20,281 nucleotides of DNA from a virus: positions 1 to 20,281 of the IMG/VR virus record IMGVR_UViG_3300046003_008172, one strand, 5' to 3'. A program made the translations under genes and the position numbers. A model generated the notes under the pieces. It searched no databases. It was not told the DNA's origin and saw only the letters and a program-made list of their open reading frames with translations. This document shows, piece after piece, positions 1 through 18,348 of the stretch; the first letter of the stretch is position 1; every line of letters starts with the position of its first letter.

Positions 1-551
1 TCTTCTGCCATTGTAATCTTTGCCTGAACCCAATCTTCAAATTGGTCTTCTTCTGAAATCATGTGGTAAAGTTTTTCTGCATTTGCAATAAGTGAAAGTA
101 GTTGACCTTTCAACATTCTTCCTTCGCCTTCTCCACAGTCGCAAGCACCATTGAGTTCATCATAACCTTCAAGAACTTTTGTTTCTGCCAAATAAACTGC
201 CTTTTCTGCAAGTTGTAACTTTTTAGAACTAGCACCTTCCTTCTTCAATTTATTTTGAAGATTGACTGCTTCGTATAAATCCTTGCTGGATTCTTTTAGT
301 TTCTTTTTAGCAGTTTGTTTTTCTATAGCTTTGTTTACTTCATTGATAAAGAACTCTTTCAAGTTTTCCATTTTATTCTCCGTAAAAGACTCTACTGGTC
401 TTGATTTAGTTTTACCACCACGTTTTCTTTTTCGTCTTCCTGCACAATGTGCTTTTTGACTGAAACCTTTTGCATTGGAACAGTCAATAGACTTTTTATA
501 CTTATTTGACCATTTCTCTAATATACTAATTACTTCTTTGTTTTCCAACAC
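1..551 (-). CDS. Phage protein of unknown function, partial (C-terminus beyond window)
   Basis: An open frame runs from a start near 551 off the left edge (183 codons visible) with no stop. I do not recognise a function. Near the N-terminus is a Cys-containing segment IDCSNAKGFSQKAHC (about residues 22-36), then a very basic stretch (RRKRKRGGKTK), then a Lys/Glu-rich, probably helical region, a CDCGEGEGR segment near residue 127, and at the visible end EDWVQAKITMAE. From memory, similar N-terminal and WVQAKIT-type segments occur in uncharacterised phage proteins; I could not check this. The start is GTG (549-551) or the adjacent in-frame TTG (546-548). An AGGAG ribosome site lies 4 nt before GTG and 7 nt before TTG, so spacing favours TTG. 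The gene follows the stop of its upstream neighbour by 7 bases, so the two are probably co-transcribed. Confidence 0.75.
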   Translation of the reverse strand, partial: MLENKEVISILEKWSNKYKKSIDCSNAKGFSQKAHCAGRRKRKRGGKTKSRPVESFTENKMENLKEFFINEVNKAIEKQTAKKKLKESSKDLYEAVNLQNKLKKEGASSKKLQLAEKAVYLAETKVLEGYDELNGACDCGEGEGRMLKGQLLSLIANAEKLYHMISEEDQFEDWVQAKITMAE

Positions 552-5329: not shown

Positions 5330-6202
5330 TTAAAAAAGTTTAGTTTCGATTAATTCTTTAATACCAAATTCCCAAAGCATATCGCCTAAACTAATATATT
5401 TCTTTGCCTCTTCGAAGTTATTAGTTACAGATTCAATTCTACTTAGATAAAATTCTTCATTTAGAGTATTAGATGATAACATCTCTATTAATTCATCTTG
5501 ATTCTTAAAAGTTACTATTCCATTCTTATCGAACATATCAAGATATGAAGTGTCATCAGATGTCCAGTATATTGGAATACATCCAGATAACATTGAATCT
5601 AATATTTTTTCTGAAAAGAATTTATCATCTTCATTTTCTATGACCAACTCAAATCTATAATCCTTCAATCCTATAGACTTATTATCAAAAGGAGGATTTA
5701 CATAATCGATAAATGATGTATCGAGAGTGTTTAATTTTTCTCTAATTGTATGGCGTAAAATATGACCAGGCATATATCTTTTACCGGAAACTATTGTTAC
5801 AATATTTTTAGTTTTAGGATATATCGACCATTGAGTTGGATGTATTAGTGTTCTTGCACCACCCGGAAACTTTTTAAATTTATGATTATCGTTTGTTTCT
5901 TTACCAAAATCATCATATGTACTGAATATCAAATCAAAATGTTGACGGTTATTTAAAACAAACTCATAATGCCAAGATGCCAAGACACGGGGTTCCACTA
6001 AAACGGCTATCTTATATTTTATATCTGTTCTTGTAATTTCTCGTATACATGGTGAATCCCAACAGTCTACCCATATCGCAATATCTTGCATCTGATTTGG
6101 AGTCCAATGTAAATACTTACTTGGAAAACACGGTAGTTCCTCAGCAACCTCTTTATCACCGTAATTCCCAGGATTACACATGAATGCATTTAATCTTTCC
6201 AT
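5330..6202 (-). CDS. GT10-like (alpha-1,3/4-fucosyltransferase family) glycosyltransferase, 290 aa
   Basis: GT10 enzymes move L-fucose, or related sugars, from a GDP donor. The hallmark is visible at residues 181-213: YRFELVIENEDDKFFSEKIL followed by DSMLSGCIPIYW, which matches the GT10 signature (Y.F.LaFENs......EK...a...G.vPvYWG) with Glu198-Lys199 as the EK pair. The N-terminal half (PNQMQDIAIWVDCW, then IAVLVEPRVLASWHYEF) matches the usual lead-in where a host protein would carry its acceptor domain. No membrane anchor is seen, unlike eukaryotic members. It directly follows gmd, four bases after its stop, with a GGAGG ribosome site, so a GDP-6-deoxyhexose donor made by Gmd is a sensible guess. 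No GDP-fucose synthase gene is seen, so the sugar could also be rhamnose- or perosamine-like. Confidence 0.83.
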   Translation of the reverse strand: MERLNAFMCNPGNYGDKEVAEELPCFPSKYLHWTPNQMQDIAIWVDCWDSPCIREITRTDIKYKIAVLVEPRVLASWHYEFVLNNRQHFDLIFSTYDDFGKETNDNHKFKKFPGGARTLIHPTQWSIYPKTKNIVTIVSGKRYMPGHILRHTIREKLNTLDTSFIDYVNPPFDNKSIGLKDYRFELVIENEDDKFFSEKILDSMLSGCIPIYWTSDDTSYLDMFDKNGIVTFKNQDELIEMLSSNTLNEEFYLSRIESVTNNFEEAKKYISLGDMLWEFGIKELIETKLF

Positions 6203-6205
6203 ATA

Positions 6206-7183
6206 TTATTCCTCCATCTTAAATATATTTATCCAGTGTTCAACCATTTCATCCATTAACATCTCAAATGTATATTCCGGATTCCATCCCATTTCAGTTC
6301 TTATACGTGATGAATCGCCTTTTAAATATGGGAGTTCTTCTGGTCTCAGGAACTTTTGATTTTGAATTACATGATCTTCGTAATTCAATTCTAATTTACT
6401 GAATACATACTTGCACATATCACGAACTGAACGAGTTTCTCCAGTTGCAACTACCCAATCACCTGGTTCATTTTGTTGAAGGATGAGATGCATAGCTCTG
6501 ACGTAATCCTTTGAGTGACCCCAATCGCGATACGCATCCAAGTTACCAAGTTCAAGTTTATCAGCAAGACCTAACTTAATTTGAACCGCCGTCTTTACAA
6601 CTTTGTTTGTTACAAAGTTTGAACCACGTCTTGGTGATTCATGATTGAAAAGTATTCCGTTACTAGCATGAAGTTTGTATGCGTGACGATAGTTACGAAC
6701 AATGTTGAAACCAAATACCTTTGAACAACCGTATGGTGATACGGGTTTCATTGGAGTTGTTTCTCTTTGATAACCATCTTCATCAACAGCACTTCCAAAC
6801 ATTTCTGAAGAACTAGCTTGATAGAATTTTGCATTAGGACAGGCACTTCGAAGTGATTCAAGGATATTTAATACACCAACTGCATTTGTTTGAACTGTGA
6901 ACTGTGGGATGTCATACGAAACACGAACATGGCTTTGTGCCGCAAGATTATAAATTTCATCAGGTTGTATTTCTCGAAGTAATCTTTCTAATCCTGATTG
7001 GTCAAGTAGATCTCCGTAATAAACAACAACATCTTTTGATAAATGGTCTATTCTACTTTGTTGGTGTTCTGATACGGAATTTCTTCTTACTATACCGTGG
7101 ACTTCGTAGCCAAGTGTAATCAAATGTTCTGCAAGATAACTTCCATCTTGACCACCAATTCCTGTAATAAATGCCTTCTTCAT
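6206..7183 (-). CDS. gmd: GDP-mannose 4,6-dehydratase
   Basis: Converts GDP-D-mannose to GDP-4-keto-6-deoxy-D-mannose, the branch point to GDP-fucose, GDP-rhamnose and GDP-perosamine. Extended SDR with GIGGQDGS (residues 8-15, the Gmd version of the NADP motif), the early HGIVRRNS segment, AAQSHVRVSYDIP, the catalytic set Ser125, Glu127, Tyr151 and Lys155 (ASSSEMFG and YGCSK), and the highly typical LFNHESPRRGSNFVT block. The C-terminal RPEELPYLKGDSSR and MGWNPEYTFEMLMDEMV close the usual 325-370-residue protein, so the gene looks complete. The start at 7183 follows the DegT-like stop by one base with AAGGA as ribosome site. No ManC or ManB gene is in the window, so GDP-mannose would have to come from the host or elsewhere in the genome. 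Confidence 0.96.
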   Translation of the reverse strand: MKKAFITGIGGQDGSYLAEHLITLGYEVHGIVRRNSVSEHQQSRIDHLSKDVVVYYGDLLDQSGLERLLREIQPDEIYNLAAQSHVRVSYDIPQFTVQTNAVGVLNILESLRSACPNAKFYQASSSEMFGSAVDEDGYQRETTPMKPVSPYGCSKVFGFNIVRNYRHAYKLHASNGILFNHESPRRGSNFVTNKVVKTAVQIKLGLADKLELGNLDAYRDWGHSKDYVRAMHLILQQNEPGDWVVATGETRSVRDMCKYVFSKLELNYEDHVIQNQKFLRPEELPYLKGDSSRIRTEMGWNPEYTFEMLMDEMVEHWINIFKMEE

Positions 7184-7184
7184 A

Positions 7185-7775
7185 TTATCCTTTCTTGAAT
7201 ATATCCATCTGTGTTAGATCAGGCCAATCAGTTACTATCCATTGTCTTGGAGTTGTTTCAATTGCCGTTGGTAATTTTTCTAATCCGAGTTTTGCAGTTT
7301 CTGGTGTCATATAATAATGATAACCGTATGATGAAACATTTTGTTCTCGCCAAGGTATCATCGGTAATCTACCATCATATGACATCTTCTTTATTTCTGT
7401 TGCTGCAATTTCGTCATCCAATAAAAGAATACCACCACGACCGAGTGAAAGATGTTTTTGATATTGGAAACTTATCCCCATCATTGTATTTGGTATGTAT
7501 GAATCTTTCTTCCAAAGAACTGCGGCATCAATAACTCTATTAGTTAGATGATAGTAGTTTACCCAATTCTCATCTCTCCATTCCAACTCTATCTTCATCT
7601 TGTTAGCCAGAAATGGAACCGAAAGATATGTTCTCTTTGGAACTGATATTTTACTTACGTTAAGATAACGAAGTGCAAGTTCTATACCGTGAGTGCAACT
7701 ATCCACTGCAACTGCAAACGGTGCACCAAAGAACGATGCGACTTCTTTTTCAAATTGTTGTACTACTTCAAACAT
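7185..7775 (-). CDS. Compact DegT/DnrJ/EryC1-type PLP aminotransferase, 196 aa
   Basis: The family aminates keto-sugar nucleotides (for example GDP-4-keto-6-deoxymannose to GDP-perosamine) using pyridoxal phosphate and glutamate. Recognisable blocks: FEKEVASFFGAPFAVAVDS then THGIELALRYL, the PLP-ring Asp in VIDAAVLW (Asp83), the Schiff-base Lys107 in SFQYQKHLSLGRGG, and YGYHYYMTPETAKLGLEKL. The full family has about 360-400 residues. Here the segment between the first strands and Asp83 is much shorter than normal, and the protein ends soon after the GLEKL block, so most of the small C-terminal domain is missing. All key PLP residues that I can place remain, and the frame is intact, so it may be an active minimal enzyme or a specialised relative. 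It begins one base before PhyH ends its stop region (AAGTAATATG) and ends one base before gmd, an arrangement suggesting a shared pathway. Confidence 0.83.
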   Translation of the reverse strand: MFEVVQQFEKEVASFFGAPFAVAVDSCTHGIELALRYLNVSKISVPKRTYLSVPFLANKMKIELEWRDENWVNYYHLTNRVIDAAVLWKKDSYIPNTMMGISFQYQKHLSLGRGGILLLDDEIAATEIKKMSYDGRLPMIPWREQNVSSYGYHYYMTPETAKLGLEKLPTAIETTPRQWIVTDWPDLTQMDIFKKG

Positions 7776-7776
7776 A

Positions 7777-8679
7777 TTACTTACCTTCTAGATATGTTTT
7801 GATGTTGTTAGTATCATTGCACCATTTCGTTGCATATTTTGCATTTGGAACATCACTAAACATCGGGTGATAGTAATGTTTACAATCACCAAAGAAATAA
7901 TGATTTGCCTGTGTCAATCTCGTTTTATTTAAATCAGTTACACCTTCAACGTTAGAACCACCGTGTAACATATTTGCTGCCCATATAAGTGCCTGTCCCT
8001 TTTTCATCTTAACGATGTAAGGTTCAACTCCACTATTATGTGTTAATCTTTCAATAAATAATTCATATTCTCTATATGTGACTGCTTCACCGTTTTCAAC
8101 TTCATCTGGGTGTGGTAATTTCAAATCATGATATTGATATATCGGCCACCTGTGACTTCCGGGGACAATTTTTAATGAACCGTTCGTTTCATCTACATCT
8201 TCAAATGCAACCCATACACCACACATCCACAATTCAGGAACTGTGTGAAAATGAATTGCATCACTATGAAGTGGTTGATTACTTCCTTTTATAAAATTAA
8301 TTGTTGAAAATGGAAAAGGCTCTTTTCCATAAAGTAGTTCAAGAGATTCTACTATTTTTGGATGTACGGTCAGTTTAGCAATTGGTAAGCTACGTTTCCA
8401 TTGCTCGAATATTCTTTTACTATCGGAATATGTAAAATGGTCTGCATGAAATACGGTAGACTCACTATCAAGTGCGTCGTACATATCATTCAGTATTGGT
8501 TGAATGTCATCATCAGTCAACCCCAAATCAATTATAGCGTATCCCTTTTCGTGAAAATCAGAACAGAACTTTTTTTGTTCTTCCGTTAAATCTAATTTTT
8601 CAAGTATAGAATAAAAGAATGGAGATTCTATCCACGGTATACTTAACGAATTTTTGTCTGTAAGATATTTGTTATTCAT
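7777..8679 (-). CDS. Phytanoyl-CoA dioxygenase (PhyH) family Fe(II)/2-oxoglutarate oxygenase, 300 aa
   Basis: Non-heme iron oxygenase that would hydroxylate a carbon centre using O2 and 2-oxoglutarate. The facial triad is visible: His138 and Asp140 in QPLHSDAIHFH and the distal His239 in MLHGGS, followed by Arg254 in KTRLTQ for 2-oxoglutarate. The N-terminal FHEKGYAIIDLGLTDDDI and the core GVWVAFEDVDETNGSLKIV then PGSHRWP are family-typical. The start is taken at 8679 because GGAG lies six bases upstream and overlaps the end of the acyltransferase gene; longer in-frame ATGs at 8691 and 8766 have no such support. The substrate is unknown. Within this cluster it could hydroxylate an acyl chain or a sugar, but phage PhyH proteins outside sugar clusters also exist. 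Confidence 0.92.
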   Translation of the reverse strand: MNNKYLTDKNSLSIPWIESPFFYSILEKLDLTEEQKKFCSDFHEKGYAIIDLGLTDDDIQPILNDMYDALDSESTVFHADHFTYSDSKRIFEQWKRSLPIAKLTVHPKIVESLELLYGKEPFPFSTINFIKGSNQPLHSDAIHFHTVPELWMCGVWVAFEDVDETNGSLKIVPGSHRWPIYQYHDLKLPHPDEVENGEAVTYREYELFIERLTHNSGVEPYIVKMKKGQALIWAANMLHGGSNVEGVTDLNKTRLTQANHYFFGDCKHYYHPMFSDVPNAKYATKWCNDTNNIKTYLEGK

Positions 8680-8680
8680 A

Positions 8681-9214
8681 TTATTCTCCATGAAGTAATT
8701 TATTTGCACTTTCAAGTATTCTTTCTTTTTCTCTAATCTTAATTGGTCTTGCGGGACAACCTGCATAAATCATCCACGGTTTTGTATCTTTTGTTACAAC
8801 TGAATTTGCACCAACGATGGTACCTTCTCTTAAAGTTACACCTGGCAATACTGTACAGTTTACACCAAGAGTTGCAAAGTCCTCAAAAATAATTGGTTTA
8901 TTTATAACCGTTCTGTGTTCAATAGGAACAACTGGAGATATTAACCCTTGTGAAAAGTCATCTGTTGCACAAACAATTCTTCCACCCGAACCAATATTTG
9001 TGAAGCTACCCATAGTTAATTTTGCAGGAGCACCTCCAATTATAGAAACACTTGGGGCAATATGAATGTAATCACCCATTATAAGTTGTGTTGAAATATA
9101 TGTCCACATATCTATTGCAATATGACTACCAATTTCAACCAGCTCCGGTCTTGATATTACACAGAGTTCGCTTATTCTGACATCGGAACCAACCCTTTTC
9201 AATTTATCTAACAT
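8681..9214 (-). CDS. Left-handed beta-helix (hexapeptide repeat) acyltransferase, 177 aa
   Basis: Transfers an acetyl or other acyl group from CoA or ACP, usually to a sugar amine or hydroxyl. Repeated hexapeptide turns appear throughout: VEIGSHIAID, LIMGDYIHIAPSVSIIGG, LTMGSFTNIGSGG, then IIFEDFATLGVNCTVLPGV, TIVGANSVVTKD and the closing AGCPARPIK that is typical of the NodL/LacA/maltose-acetyltransferase and sugar N-acyltransferase group. The start is the ATG at 9214 with GAGG just upstream, rather than the ATG at 9226 that lacks a ribosome site; it overlaps nothing but follows the KAS III stop (TGATATG). Since aminotransferase and ketoacyl synthase genes flank it, N-acylation of a 4-amino-6-deoxyhexose is a reasonable inference (compare PerB/WbdR for perosamine). 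Confidence 0.92.
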   Translation of the reverse strand: MLDKLKRVGSDVRISELCVISRPELVEIGSHIAIDMWTYISTQLIMGDYIHIAPSVSIIGGAPAKLTMGSFTNIGSGGRIVCATDDFSQGLISPVVPIEHRTVINKPIIFEDFATLGVNCTVLPGVTLREGTIVGANSVVTKDTKPWMIYAGCPARPIKIREKERILESANKLLHGE

Positions 9215-9215
9215 A

Positions 9216-10163
9216 TCAATCCTCATAATTTATTAGAATTGAACCCCATGTCCATCCTGAGCCTATTGCGGTGAAAAGAATCTTATCACCTTTTTTAATT
9301 TGACCGTCTTCTCTTGCCTCATGAAACGCAATTGGAACGGATGCACCTGCAATATTTGCGTACTTGTGCATAACAGTTTTAACTTTTTCCATAGGAAGTC
9401 CCACTTCCTGCGCGACTATCTTCAATATATTTATACTTGGTTGGTGTGGAATAAGTAAACTTATTTCTGAAACATCCATATTATTCTTTTTCAGAATTGA
9501 TTTAATAGATGGCGGTAAAACTTTAACTGCCTGTTCCCAAACTTCTTTTCCATTCATATTGAACTTTTTTCCATGTTCAAGAACGAATCCAGTCATACCA
9601 GTTCCATTTCCGTTTGCAAGTATCTCACTTGAAATCCAACCTCGTTCAGATTTACCAAGAACAACTGCACCAGCTCCGTCTCCAAAAAAGACACAATGTT
9701 TATGATTCCAATCTGTTATTTTTGAATAGGCTTCTGTTGCTATAATTAGTACATTGTTATACATACCAGAACTGATGAATGATGCACCCATAGTCATTGC
9801 GTATACAAATCCAGAGCAAACTGCATTTACATCAAATGATGGTACATTTTTTTCTATGTTTAATTTTTCGTGAATGATACAAGCAGTTGATGGAGAAATT
9901 TTTTCAGGACTTGATGTTGCAACAATAATTAAGTCTAAATCTTCTTTATCTATCCCTGCATCTTTCATTGCGTTTATTGCCGCTGAATATCCGAGAGTAG
10001 AAACGGTTTCTGATTCTGAAGCAACTCTTCTTTCTTCGATTCCAAGTTTTTCTTTTATCCACTCATCAGTTGTATCAATTCCATTTATTATAGAATTGTT
10101 CAAGAATATATTACTTGGTAATGCAACACCAGAACCTTTTATATTTACATTGTTGAATACCAC
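9216..10163 (-). CDS. 3-oxoacyl-ACP synthase III (FabH-like), 315 aa, GTG start
   Basis: KAS III enzymes condense an acyl-CoA with malonyl-ACP to give a short 3-oxoacyl-ACP. The full catalytic triad is present: Cys116 in NAVCSGF, His240 in LIPHQPS and Asn270 in YANIAGAS, the same spacing as in E. coli FabH (112, 244, 274). Other family blocks: TTDEWIKEKLGIEERRVA, FFGDGAGAVVLG, and the C-terminal FTAIGSGWTWGSILI. The length is normal. Start: GTG at 10161-10163 overlaps the cupin stop (TAGTG), and GGAG stands five bases before it. In bacterial glycan clusters such as the viosamine island of Pseudomonas syringae, a KAS III gene helps to make the acyl substituent of an amino sugar; a similar role fits here. 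It could alternatively affect host lipid synthesis. No acyl carrier protein gene is in the window. Confidence 0.94.
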   Translation of the reverse strand: MVFNNVNIKGSGVALPSNIFLNNSIINGIDTTDEWIKEKLGIEERRVASESETVSTLGYSAAINAMKDAGIDKEDLDLIIVATSSPEKISPSTACIIHEKLNIEKNVPSFDVNAVCSGFVYAMTMGASFISSGMYNNVLIIATEAYSKITDWNHKHCVFFGDGAGAVVLGKSERGWISSEILANGNGTGMTGFVLEHGKKFNMNGKEVWEQAVKVLPPSIKSILKKNNMDVSEISLLIPHQPSINILKIVAQEVGLPMEKVKTVMHKYANIAGASVPIAFHEAREDGQIKKGDKILFTAIGSGWTWGSILINYED

Positions 10164-10579
10164 TATGACTCCAAGAAAACTTTATCCAAAGATTGTCCTT
10201 CATATGGTCCGGTCTTATATTCATATACAAGAGTATCTTCTTCAAGTATTTTATAATTGTGACCACCTTCAAGTGTGAAACTGGCATCGCCCTCATTCAA
10301 AACAAATTTCTCTAAAACAGTATCGTCAAGGTCATAAAAAATTACCTCAACACTACCACGAATAATTACCCAGCTTTCCTGTGCGATAACATTTCGTGTT
10401 CTCTCTTTCCAAATATGTTTGTGTGGTTTAAATGTTTTTCCATTTTCCATCTGCAATATAGAACATTGAATAAATTGTGATTCGTCAATTATATCTTGTC
10501 TTCCTGATTTAAAATCATCTTTACGAACAACAATATGTAATATTTTTTCAGGGTCTATCTTTGAATAGATTTTTTTCAT
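10163..10579 (-). CDS. Cupin-fold protein of the polysaccharide-cluster type, 138 aa
   Basis: A single cupin beta-barrel. Metal-binding signature residues appear in GKTFKPHKHIW (two His) and a later His in EGGHNYKILEEDTLVYEYKT; between them lie ESWVIIRGSVEVIFYDLDD and FVLNEGDASF, the usual barrel strands. The combination ending YKTGPYEGQSLDK is one I associate with small cupins in capsule and O-antigen clusters, related in fold to WbuC and to the QdtA/FdtA keto-isomerases, but the match is from memory and the exact activity is open (isomerase, epimerase or binding protein). The ATG at 10579 shares a base with the stop of the 30-codon ORF upstream (TAATG), and its own TAG overlaps the GTG of the ketoacyl synthase gene, so the three are likely co-translated. 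Confidence 0.85.
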   Translation of the reverse strand: MKKIYSKIDPEKILHIVVRKDDFKSGRQDIIDESQFIQCSILQMENGKTFKPHKHIWKERTRNVIAQESWVIIRGSVEVIFYDLDDTVLEKFVLNEGDASFTLEGGHNYKILEEDTLVYEYKTGPYEGQSLDKVFLES

Positions 10580-16414: not shown

Positions 16415-17446
16415 TTACAATAACAAGTGTGGTTTTGCTTCAATCAAACCATTTTGTGTAATCAAAACGTGTTCGGAATTTACATGAAACTCTGTAATAT
16501 TTCTTGCATTTACATAAGACATTGAAGAACGAACGCCATCCTTGATGTCATTAATGATTCTCTCGACCTTACCCTTGTAAGGAATCAACTTTGAATTACC
16601 TTCCACGTTCTTTTCTTCCAAACCATGAACTTGTTTTACTTCGGCTGATGCAGAACCACGATACTTCTTGAAGAGTTGTTCGTTCGGCCACATTCCCATT
16701 CTTTGAATTTCACCGGGAGATTCACGAGTACCTGCGAGAAGTGAACCCAACATTACAGAGTCCGCACCAAGTGACAATGCCTTTGCAACATCACCTGTCA
16801 ATCTAATTCCGCCGTCTGCAATAACAGGAACATCGATTCCTGTTTCTTCTATACCAGCAATAGATTCAATAAGTGCGGTAACTTGTGGAATACCAACACC
16901 AGTTCTGATTCTTGTTTCACAAAGAGAACCATTACCGATACCAACTCGAATTGCATCTGCTCCCCACTCTGCCAGATTCCTTGCACCTTCACGAGTGGAA
17001 ACATTACCAGCAATCACATCAACATATTCAGGAAGATTTTCCTTACACCACTTGATTGCATCTTTTACTTGTTTTGTGTTACCGTGAGCAACATCAATAA
17101 GAAGAACTATCGCGCCGGCATTTGCAAGAGAAGCCGCACGTTCTTGATAATCTCCTGTTGCACCAATTGCTGCTGAAACAAGTTTCTCTTGTTCCTTTAC
17201 TTTCAAGACGTGTTTTACTTGTTCATCTATTTTCATGAAACGATGAATGATACCAACTCCACCGTGGTCTGCCATAGCAAGACACATCTTTGAATCTGAA
17301 ACTGTGTCCATCGGTGAAGAGACAAGTGGTGATCCAATAACATATCTCTTTGTGAATTTTGTTCTCAACTCACATTGACTCCGACTTTCTATTTCACTGT
17401 AAACCGGAGTGATTTGAATATCATCAAATGTATATGCGTACTTCAT
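16415..17446 (-). CDS. IMP dehydrogenase/GMP reductase family enzyme without CBS domains, 343 aa
   Basis: TIM-barrel enzyme of guanine-nucleotide metabolism (IMP to XMP with NAD+, or GMP to IMP with NADPH). Seen: the N-terminal YTFDDIQITP, SPMDTVSD, VGIIHRF, the NAD-side IDVAHGNT (Asp118), and the catalytic loop GIGNGSLCETRIRTGVGIPQ with Cys176. Downstream, IADGGIRLTGDVAKAL, VMLGSLLAGTRESPGE and KYRGSAS complete the IMP site, and LIPYKGKVERIINDI with GVRSSMSYV ends the barrel. Between HRF (residues 68-70) and the next barrel strand there are only about 20 residues, so the regulatory CBS pair is absent. AHG and LAGT-ESPGE look like IMPDH, while the flap EGNSKLIPYKG lacks the usual Arg-Tyr catalytic pair of IMPDH and recalls GMP reductase; I leave the direction open. 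ATG at 17446 (AGGG upstream) overlaps the nuclease stop in TAATG. Confidence 0.92.
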   Translation of the reverse strand: MKYAYTFDDIQITPVYSEIESRSQCELRTKFTKRYVIGSPLVSSPMDTVSDSKMCLAMADHGGVGIIHRFMKIDEQVKHVLKVKEQEKLVSAAIGATGDYQERAASLANAGAIVLLIDVAHGNTKQVKDAIKWCKENLPEYVDVIAGNVSTREGARNLAEWGADAIRVGIGNGSLCETRIRTGVGIPQVTALIESIAGIEETGIDVPVIADGGIRLTGDVAKALSLGADSVMLGSLLAGTRESPGEIQRMGMWPNEQLFKKYRGSASAEVKQVHGLEEKNVEGNSKLIPYKGKVERIINDIKDGVRSSMSYVNARNITEFHVNSEHVLITQNGLIEAKPHLLL

Positions 17447-18348
17447 TATTGAACCCTGTTTTTTATTGGACATAAATCATCTCTATCTTTGAACTCACAC
17501 CAACGGCAATTCTTTTTCTTTTCGCCTTCAATTGGTGGGTGGTAAATATCTGTTCTCTTATTACCTTCCGAATCAAATGCCGTTTCAACAAATGTTTGAA
17601 TCTCCTTCAGAATTTGAGTTTGTGAAACCTTACCATGAGAAGGAGCAAATCGTTGAACACGTTTTCTCATTGCTGCATATTCTGCGTTCTCATCAATCTT
17701 ACGTTTGAGAATAAGATATTCAATCTCAATATCGTCGGGATGAATATCATACTGTTTTGCATAGAACGTCTTGTATAGAACAAGTTGTGAAGTCTTTACT
17801 TTATCTGCCTTCGTGTACTTATTCCATCCACTTGTTGATGTTTTAAAATCGTAGATGTGAATCTTACCATTTCGTATATCTCTCATCACCAAGTCAAGGA
17901 AACCAACGAGTCGAACATTTGGATTTGATTCGAGTGGTACGATATTGATTGGCAATTCGATACCAACAAGTTCCCAACCCTTCTTCATAAAGAACTCTTC
18001 ACGATGTGCCTTGAACCAACGTATGATTTCAATACCATCCATAAGGTGTTCTTGCATTTCATCACGATGTGAGAAGTGCTCGTCATTGTTTTCAGTCAAT
18101 AACTTTTTGTACTCCACACCCATTTTTTCTTTTAGAAGGTCTTCGAGTGGAAGTTCGTTTGCTTCTTCAACGGTAGAACGATACAACATCTCTACATACA
18201 TCTGAAGAACTTCGTGCATTGCAGTTCCAAACACGAGAGCGATTGATGGAGAAGGAACGGAAACCTTATCAATGTAATTCAGTTTCCAACGATGAGGACA
18301 TCCCTTCCACATTTGATATTGTGAAAAGGAAATTCGTGAAGAGGACAT
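17446..18348 (-). CDS. PD-(D/E)XK nuclease of the RecB/Cas4/AddB type with probable Fe-S cluster, 300 aa
   Basis: Predicted Mg-dependent DNA exonuclease or endonuclease for replication, recombination or end processing. The motif order of the RecB-like family is present: SFSQYQMWKGCPHRWKLNY at the N-terminus, FGTAMHEVL (His45), GIELP (Glu131), GFLDLVM (Asp152), IYDFKTS (Asp167, Lys169), and QLVLYKTFY as the QxxxY helix. Cys17 and the C-terminal Cys281, Cys284 and Cys293 (CRWC, then C before PIKN) have the one-plus-three arrangement that holds a 4Fe-4S cluster in AddB, Dna2 and Cas4. The length agrees with stand-alone phage versions. It lies between the DUF1599-like gene (TAATG overlap) and the IMPDH-family gene. 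No helicase is fused, and no CRISPR array or other cas gene is present, so Cas4 in the adaptation sense is not implied. Confidence 0.92.
   Translation of the reverse strand: MSSSRISFSQYQMWKGCPHRWKLNYIDKVSVPSPSIALVFGTAMHEVLQMYVEMLYRSTVEEANELPLEDLLKEKMGVEYKKLLTENNDEHFSHRDEMQEHLMDGIEIIRWFKAHREEFFMKKGWELVGIELPINIVPLESNPNVRLVGFLDLVMRDIRNGKIHIYDFKTSTSGWNKYTKADKVKTSQLVLYKTFYAKQYDIHPDDIEIEYLILKRKIDENAEYAAMRKRVQRFAPSHGKVSQTQILKEIQTFVETAFDSEGNKRTDIYHPPIEGEKKKNCRWCEFKDRDDLCPIKNRVQ

Follow-up and report, generated by a model that had tools for sequence, protein, structure and literature searches.

The window analysed here spans a 20,281-base virus record and carries phage clamp-loader and exonuclease genes. 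On its minus strand, at 7185..7775, lies a gene for a half-size DegT-fold protein of 196 amino acids, recognized from its open reading frame, a match to Pfam PF01041, alignment, a structural model and its sequence. The first-pass annotation had placed such a protein here without naming a strand and had described the frame and ribosome sites as intact, and this was borne out: the frame runs from an ATG at 7775 to a TAA at 7187–7185, and a GAAGG ribosome-binding sequence (7784..7788, minus strand) stands 8 bases before the ATG. The codons of three residues discussed below, Asp83, Ser102, and Lys107, are at 7529–7527, 7472–7470, and 7457–7455, respectively. One base after the stop codon begins the gene for a GDP-mannose 4,6-dehydratase (GMD) of 325 amino acids (6206..7183, minus strand), with AAAGGA at 7193–7188; this protein scored 384 bits against Pfam GDP_Man_Dehyd and 388 bits against TIGR01472 gmd, just below the curated cut-off of 415. 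Downstream of the GMD, a glycosyltransferase-like protein (5330..6202, minus strand) gave weak Exostosin_GT47 and Glyco_transf_10 Pfam matches, both below their cut-offs.

The genes upstream are all on the same strand. A PhyH-type (Fe/2-oxoglutarate) oxygenase (7777..8766; Pfam PhyH, 74.4 bits) has its stop codon 1 base upstream of the half-size ATG, and its true start is probably the ATG at 8679, to judge from relatives of about 300 amino acids. It is preceded by a left-handed beta-helix (hexapeptide) acyltransferase of 181 amino acids (8681..9226; Pfam Hexapep, 32.1 bits, cut-off 27), which reached 58.6 bits with the NeuD/PglB/VioB model, under the cut-off of 160.8, and by a beta-ketoacyl-ACP synthase III-like protein of 315 amino acids (9216..10163; PRK09352, 337 bits, cut-off 249; TIGR00747 fabH, 317.8 bits, cut-off 292.1). 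This phage-borne synthase, in which Cys, His, and Asn residues that we take to be the FabH triad seem present by eye, shares a gene run with the acyltransferase and the PhyH protein, and its cluster co-occurred with 11 of 99 half-size members. Before the synthase lies a WbuC-family cupin of 138 amino acids (10163..10579; TIGR04366, 44.6 bits, cut-off 42). This cupin was strongly conserved, with a mean column identity of 65% over a 25-row alignment; assignment as a QdtA/FdtA-type ketoisomerase was unsupported, the protein being of the WbuC type, and no paper title on the reaction of WbuC cupins was found among the literature matches listed. Elsewhere in the window, a dehydrogenase-like frame (16415–17473, minus strand) matched phrog_9582 at 334 bits and looked IMP dehydrogenase-like by eye.

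Enzymes of fold type I that use pyridoxal 5'-phosphate (PLP) normally have two domains and 340–400 residues or more, and the full-length DegT frames compared here had 370–438 amino acids. Within one frame, two stretches of the window protein matched the Pfam DegT profile (60.9 bits against a cut-off of 19.8; E 1.7e-16), and half-size members generally, usually of 195–230 amino acids, matched it in two pieces at about 10–109 and 163–247. The homologues of about 200 amino acids for which the first-pass annotation had proposed a search were found by tblastn in 7 phage-collection records, each matching over at least 80% of the query. The seven are two metagenomic phages (one of 642 kb, 63% identity; one of 595 kb, 33%), a Synechococcus phage (50%), and four Flavobacterium phage immuto records (31%). 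Half-size proteins were also found in 30 viral contigs in a first scan, in at least 581 in a second, profile-based scan, and in 18 genome contigs, bacterial and one archaeal by title. Of 201 genomes sampled from the same family as the Prochlorococcus genome with locus L041, 3 matched, and of 199 sampled from the phylum to which the Marinimicrobia genome with locus L040 belongs, 7 matched, one of these 7 being a 314-amino-acid form together with a fragment at a contig end. One copy lies in a 1.93-Mb contig, with the order of cupin and GMD genes kept, by eye. The 124 half-size frames had 195–250 amino acids, except for one cut copy of 150. The dN/dS ratio between the window gene and the three closest of 11 relatives was 0.08–0.13; 10 of the 11 relative pairs fell at 0.05–0.19, and one pair was saturated. 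A tree of 62 rows and 190 columns, whose 35 full-length rows include at least three second copies of one gene, grouped all 26 half-size rows in one clade with an ultrafast bootstrap of 100. By these sequence comparisons, the half-size gene is a conserved family of single origin, mostly of 195–220 residues, and not a broken gene. No half-size DegT protein was found by title or abstract opening among the top-ranked literature matches.

Two unusual arrangements were seen among the half-size genes. In one viral record, an 872-amino-acid frame (L134:2492-5110, minus strand; record G016) has a half-size DegT protein of a divergent subfamily as its C-terminal part, preceded by glycosyltransferase-like and FkbM-like methyltransferase sequence, by eye. 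Two different half-size genes were present in each of locus L104 and viral records G009, G010, and G012; in L104, one belonged to the main subfamily and the other to the divergent subfamily.

The gene order cupin–tailoring enzyme–half-size protein–GMD recurred among 99 non-redundant half-size members in 98 loci, in counts that lean to the main subfamily, whose patterns found the loci. The GMD was the next gene in 74 of the 99, with a gap of at most 10 bases in 60; it was not the next gene in 25 (one without a next frame) and was not found in the fetched flank in 15. A WbuC-type cupin was nearby in 77 of the 99, immediately before the half-size gene in 3, and cupin and GMD were both present in 75. 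The first-pass annotation had suggested that the protein may need a partner and had named the cupin as an example; if there is a partner, the GMD is at least as good a candidate. The close coupling of the two genes suggests that their products may act together. Named from one or two annotated members of each cluster, the preceding genes encoded proteins of a methyltransferase cluster (24 of 99), hexapeptide (17), glycosyltransferase-like (9), PhyH (7), formyltransferase (4), and GNAT (4) proteins, and others seen one to three times; the preceding gene was methyl-, acyl-, acetyl-, or formyltransferase-like in 49 of the 99. Of the 17 genome loci, 10 had the GMD as the next gene and 11 had a cupin. 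Both were found, by title, in contigs of Marinimicrobia, Prochlorococcus, Altibacter, Chitinophagaceae, and Alphaproteobacteria, among others; the short contigs among these could be viral, and L047 is on a contig of 380 kb and L040 on one of 229 kb. In the divergent subfamily (8 of the 99), the GMD was never the next gene, a hexapeptide acyltransferase was next in 3 of the 8, and neither GMD nor cupin was seen at its five genome loci (L049–L053).

Because these loci had been chosen by the half-size gene itself, we fetched 80 viral loci (the best 80 of 461) by way of the cupin as a control. Of the 80, 70 carried the half-size gene; among the 68 that extended 3 kb or more downstream, 65 carried it and 59 had a GMD. 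Between cupin and GMD, the half-size gene was found in 60 of the 80 loci and a full-length DegT gene in none. One exception, L191, has a cupin, an SDR-like gene, and a GMD without a half-size gene, and a full-length DegT gene further upstream. The first-pass annotation had considered that a frameshift or assembly error might have removed the second half of the gene, to be recognized by full-length relatives with the same flanks. No such relative occupied that place in the control, and the same length, frame, and deletions recurred in many independent contigs and several phyla under low dN/dS. A decaying remnant or an artefact, for which the length of the protein alone speaks, is thus ruled out as far as these comparisons reach, and we give it practically no credence.

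Full-length DegT genes did occur elsewhere: in the fetched stretches of 24 of the 80 cupin-seeded loci (in 23 of the 24 cases upstream of the cupin) and of 14 of the 98 loci seeded by the half-size gene, and somewhere in 6 of the 22 virus or phage records, so that another transaminase is sometimes at hand. The upstream genes often encode about 380–396 amino acids (loci such as L203, L206, L229, and L238) and perhaps serve a second aminosugar. The presence of full-length DegT genes would suit a half-size protein that is active only in a heteromer whose other subunit is a full-length DegT aminotransferase from the host or the phage. Against this, no full-length gene was found in 56 of the 80, 84 of the 98, and 16 of the 22, respectively, figures taken from short loci and from records that may be fragments. 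Nor was a separate C-terminal half, as a split gene would leave, found among the matches listed for the 22 virus and phage records, none of which starts beyond profile position 168. We regard dependence on a full-length partner as very unlikely.

The structure of the window protein as a monomer, a check that the first-pass annotation had proposed, was predicted by AlphaFold2 from a 59-row alignment as one compact domain of high confidence (pLDDT 96.9, pTM 0.92). In a Foldseek search of the PDB, the first two rows were GDP-perosamine synthase, with E values of 5.7e-10 and 7.7e-10 and query TM scores of 0.69 and 0.71, respectively, and a profile search also placed perosamine synthetase first (E 1.4e-11). 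VIA-align gave Z scores of 17.4–19.6 and rmsd values of 2.0–2.9 over 183–194 of the 196 residues for the 50 matches listed, which were mostly sugar aminotransferases, and showed the fold type I large domain without its beta4 unit. Compared with the full-length protein of L040, the half-size protein lacks the arm of about 30–35 N-terminal residues, about 40 residues before Asp83, and about 100 C-terminal residues. The middle loss corresponds to the beta4-helix unit between the third strand and Asp83, so that the large domain is not the complete seven-stranded one: the shortening held in eight aligned half-size rows, and the stretch from Asp68 to Asp83 has 15 residues, versus 54 in L040. In the model, a three-residue strand at 74–76 may stand in for beta4. 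Most of the C-terminal small domain was absent by profile and by alignment, the profile matches ending at or before position 247 of 360. The first-pass annotation had noticed both the compression ahead of Asp83 and the loss of the C-terminal domain, and both are real. In place of the substrate-lining loop that the missing domain would supply, the protein probably uses its last residues, Trp/Tyr184-Pro-Asp-Leu. In a 14-sequence alignment, Trp184 fell on the W/Y of a W-K-P-M-H or H-Y loop (four longer rows checked), and the VIA-align ranges, which ended at residue 330 of 3dr4 and residue 357 of 6ewj, agree with this placing. A 135-sequence alignment split the C-terminal tail and did not place W/Y-P-D-L on that loop; because of this split, its rows for D183–F193 are not comparable with full-length proteins.

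For the active site, we used Spr1654 as the reference. In the passages of the Spr1654 study that treat cofactor and substrate contacts (PMC5936713), Lys199 forms the Schiff base, Asp170 contacts PLP N1, His173 contacts O3', Tyr84 lies on the PLP ring, Ser194 and Thr59 bind the phosphate, Glu205 and Gly206 make contact via water, His344-Tyr345 line the substrate, and Gly28 is one of two nucleotide-contact residues. Aligned with these residues, Asp83, Ser102, Lys107, Tyr50, and Thr28 of the half-size protein correspond to Asp170, Ser194, Lys199, Tyr84, and Thr59, respectively, and the VIA-align range (6ewj 29..357) leaves Gly28 without a counterpart in the half-size protein. Asp83 and Lys107, which the first-pass annotation had named as PLP ligands, are thus correctly placed, and both were invariant in the 99 non-redundant members, as were Ser102, Tyr50, Thr49, and Gly114; position 28 was Thr in 94 and Ser in 4. 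The catalytic Lys was kept in every half-size member, and His stood at that place in 9 of the 35 full-length rows (at least three of which are second copies of one gene). Three other positions were changed. The position that bonds to O3', three residues after the Asp, was Val in 90 of 99 and Leu in 5, versus His, Glu, Gln, Asp, or Cys in the full-length rows (His in Spr1654); the position of Glu205 was Arg in 87 and Lys in 12; and the Arg/Lys/His of the N-Y-R motif was Tyr in 98 of 99. The kept cofactor residues argue for a working PLP site, and the changed positions show that the protein is no simple miniature copy of its relatives. An Arg near the PLP phosphate could compensate for lost contacts.

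These three changes are also the reason why a loss of activity, which the first-pass annotation had considered, is conceivable. The protein might then be a GMD subunit or chaperone that keeps the pocket for folding or for holding PLP or a keto sugar, and the tight coupling to the GMD and the missing arm and C-terminal domain would fit such a role as well. However, invariant Lys107 and Asp83 would be needless for a mere scaffold, and the 8 divergent members keep both without the GMD as the next gene. We consider a non-catalytic role unlikely, though worth keeping in mind. The minimal enzyme, another of the options raised at first, is favored by the invariant catalytic residues, purifying selection, the predicted one-domain model, and the aminosugar-type neighborhood.

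A second form that is shortened in part was found in a genome of the Marinimicrobia phylum. This DegT protein of 314 amino acids (L151:3534-4475) is like the half-size protein in that the beta4 unit is gone at the same place and Tyr stands in N-Y-R, and is unlike it in that the C-terminal domain is kept, the second Pfam piece covering 158–359 of 360, and Gln stands three residues after the Asp. Pro stood at the Tyr50 position in the alignment. In the tree, it joined the half-size clade with a support of 93. Its neighbors are an FdtA (101.6 bits), a dTDP-glucose 4,6-dehydratase (RmlB; 356.8 bits, cut-off 365.1), and an RmlA (272 bits, cut-off 360.7), so that it stands where the aminotransferase of a dTDP-aminosugar pathway would. 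This comparison suggests a two-step shortening, the first step of which would not have ended aminotransferase function. Patterns derived from this sequence alone found no further 314-amino-acid form in viral contigs; of 245 genomes of its own phylum, 1 matched, namely its own, and of 146 genomes of the phylum of G050, none did, in a search without a positive control. The intermediate therefore rests on one contig. A candidate for a second intermediate, from marine virus AG-345-F15, proved to be a full-length DegT protein of about 397 amino acids with the beta4 unit. An unnamed viral model of 316 residues in BFVD (A0A5Q2W5Y7) gave a TM score of 0.87 on the query, above the listed PDB rows, and may be another intermediate-size form.

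The known enzyme closest to the half-size protein was GDP-perosamine synthase (RfbE/Per; PDB 3bn1, 3dr4, and 3dr7, Caulobacter), the first match by both profile and Foldseek. The substrate of this synthase is made by GMD, whose gene is also the commonest neighbor of the half-size gene. The two proteins share the aligned PLP Lys, Ser, and Thr, whereas the synthase is full length, with about 370 amino acids versus 196, and has the Asn-Tyr-Arg and Gly-Glu-Gly-Gly motifs that are changed in the half-size protein (profile alignment). The DegT sugar aminotransferases in general (ArnB, PseC, WlaRG, QdtB, and Spr1654; PF01041) have the same core fold and main cofactor residues; the half-size protein differs from them by the three missing pieces, by mostly Val at the O3' position, by Arg/Lys at the Glu205 position, and by Tyr in N-Y-R. 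Its scores against the NCBIfam equivalogs were far under their cut-offs (LegC 34.2 versus 420 bits, PseC 25 versus 423.5, and ArnB 15 versus 631). By homology, the half-size protein belongs within the DegT family; because it lacks two architectural features and one cofactor contact by which the known enzymes are defined, we call it a compact sister clade and not a perosamine synthase.

On the reading that we prefer and consider rather probable, the half-size protein is a compact single-domain protein with the DegT/DnrJ/EryC1/StrS fold, in which Lys107 would still hold PLP, and would work as a nucleotide-sugar aminotransferase on the GMD product. In the proposed pathway, the GMD would make GDP-4-keto-6-deoxy-D-mannose, the half-size enzyme, as a homodimer with active sites at the interface, would aminate this keto sugar to a perosamine-type product, and the tailoring enzyme, a methyl-, acyl-, acetyl-, or formyltransferase, would then modify the product before its transfer to a surface glycan. 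The tailoring genes could, as a counterpoint, act on hydroxyls and not on amines. An active PLP enzyme might also carry out a reaction other than transamination, for example sugar epimerisation, dehydration, or retro-aldol cleavage, in keeping with the substrate- and cofactor-contact residues that differ from the 35 full-length rows at several positions; by the residues listed, Arg/Lys at the Glu205 position and Tyr in N-Y-R occur in no full-length row. Besides transamination, this fold family is well known for one reaction, the 3-dehydration of ColD and E1, enzymes that share the fold (VIA-align lists E1, 3bb8) and in which His replaces the Lys. In E1 the residue at the catalytic place is His220, by the PDB title of an H220K mutant, whereas the half-size protein has Lys in 99 of 99, and the adjoining formyl- and acetyltransferase-like genes fit an amine product. 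We therefore regard a different reaction as improbable and retain the aminotransferase as our preferred reading.

In its broadest form, which we offer tentatively as a possibility deserving serious attention, our proposal is that this is the smallest self-sufficient family of fold-type-I PLP enzymes. It would have arisen by a two-step loss, first of the beta4 unit and then of the arm and small domain, its active site rebuilt around a conserved Arg/Lys close to the PLP phosphate, with a short C-terminal tail taking over from a whole domain. The enzyme would act jointly with the coupled GMD on a keto sugar that is unstable, and phages would have spread it among aquatic bacteria. A conserved protein of 196 residues that retains the Lys of the Schiff base, the Asp at N1, the aromatic residue on the ring, and the two side chains at the phosphate would show how far the fold can be reduced, and one small protein makes this question testable. 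The results also suggest that modified aminosugars are made by phages of aquatic habitats, very large ones and a cyanophage among them, and they warn against taking every short DegT match in metagenomes for a fragment.
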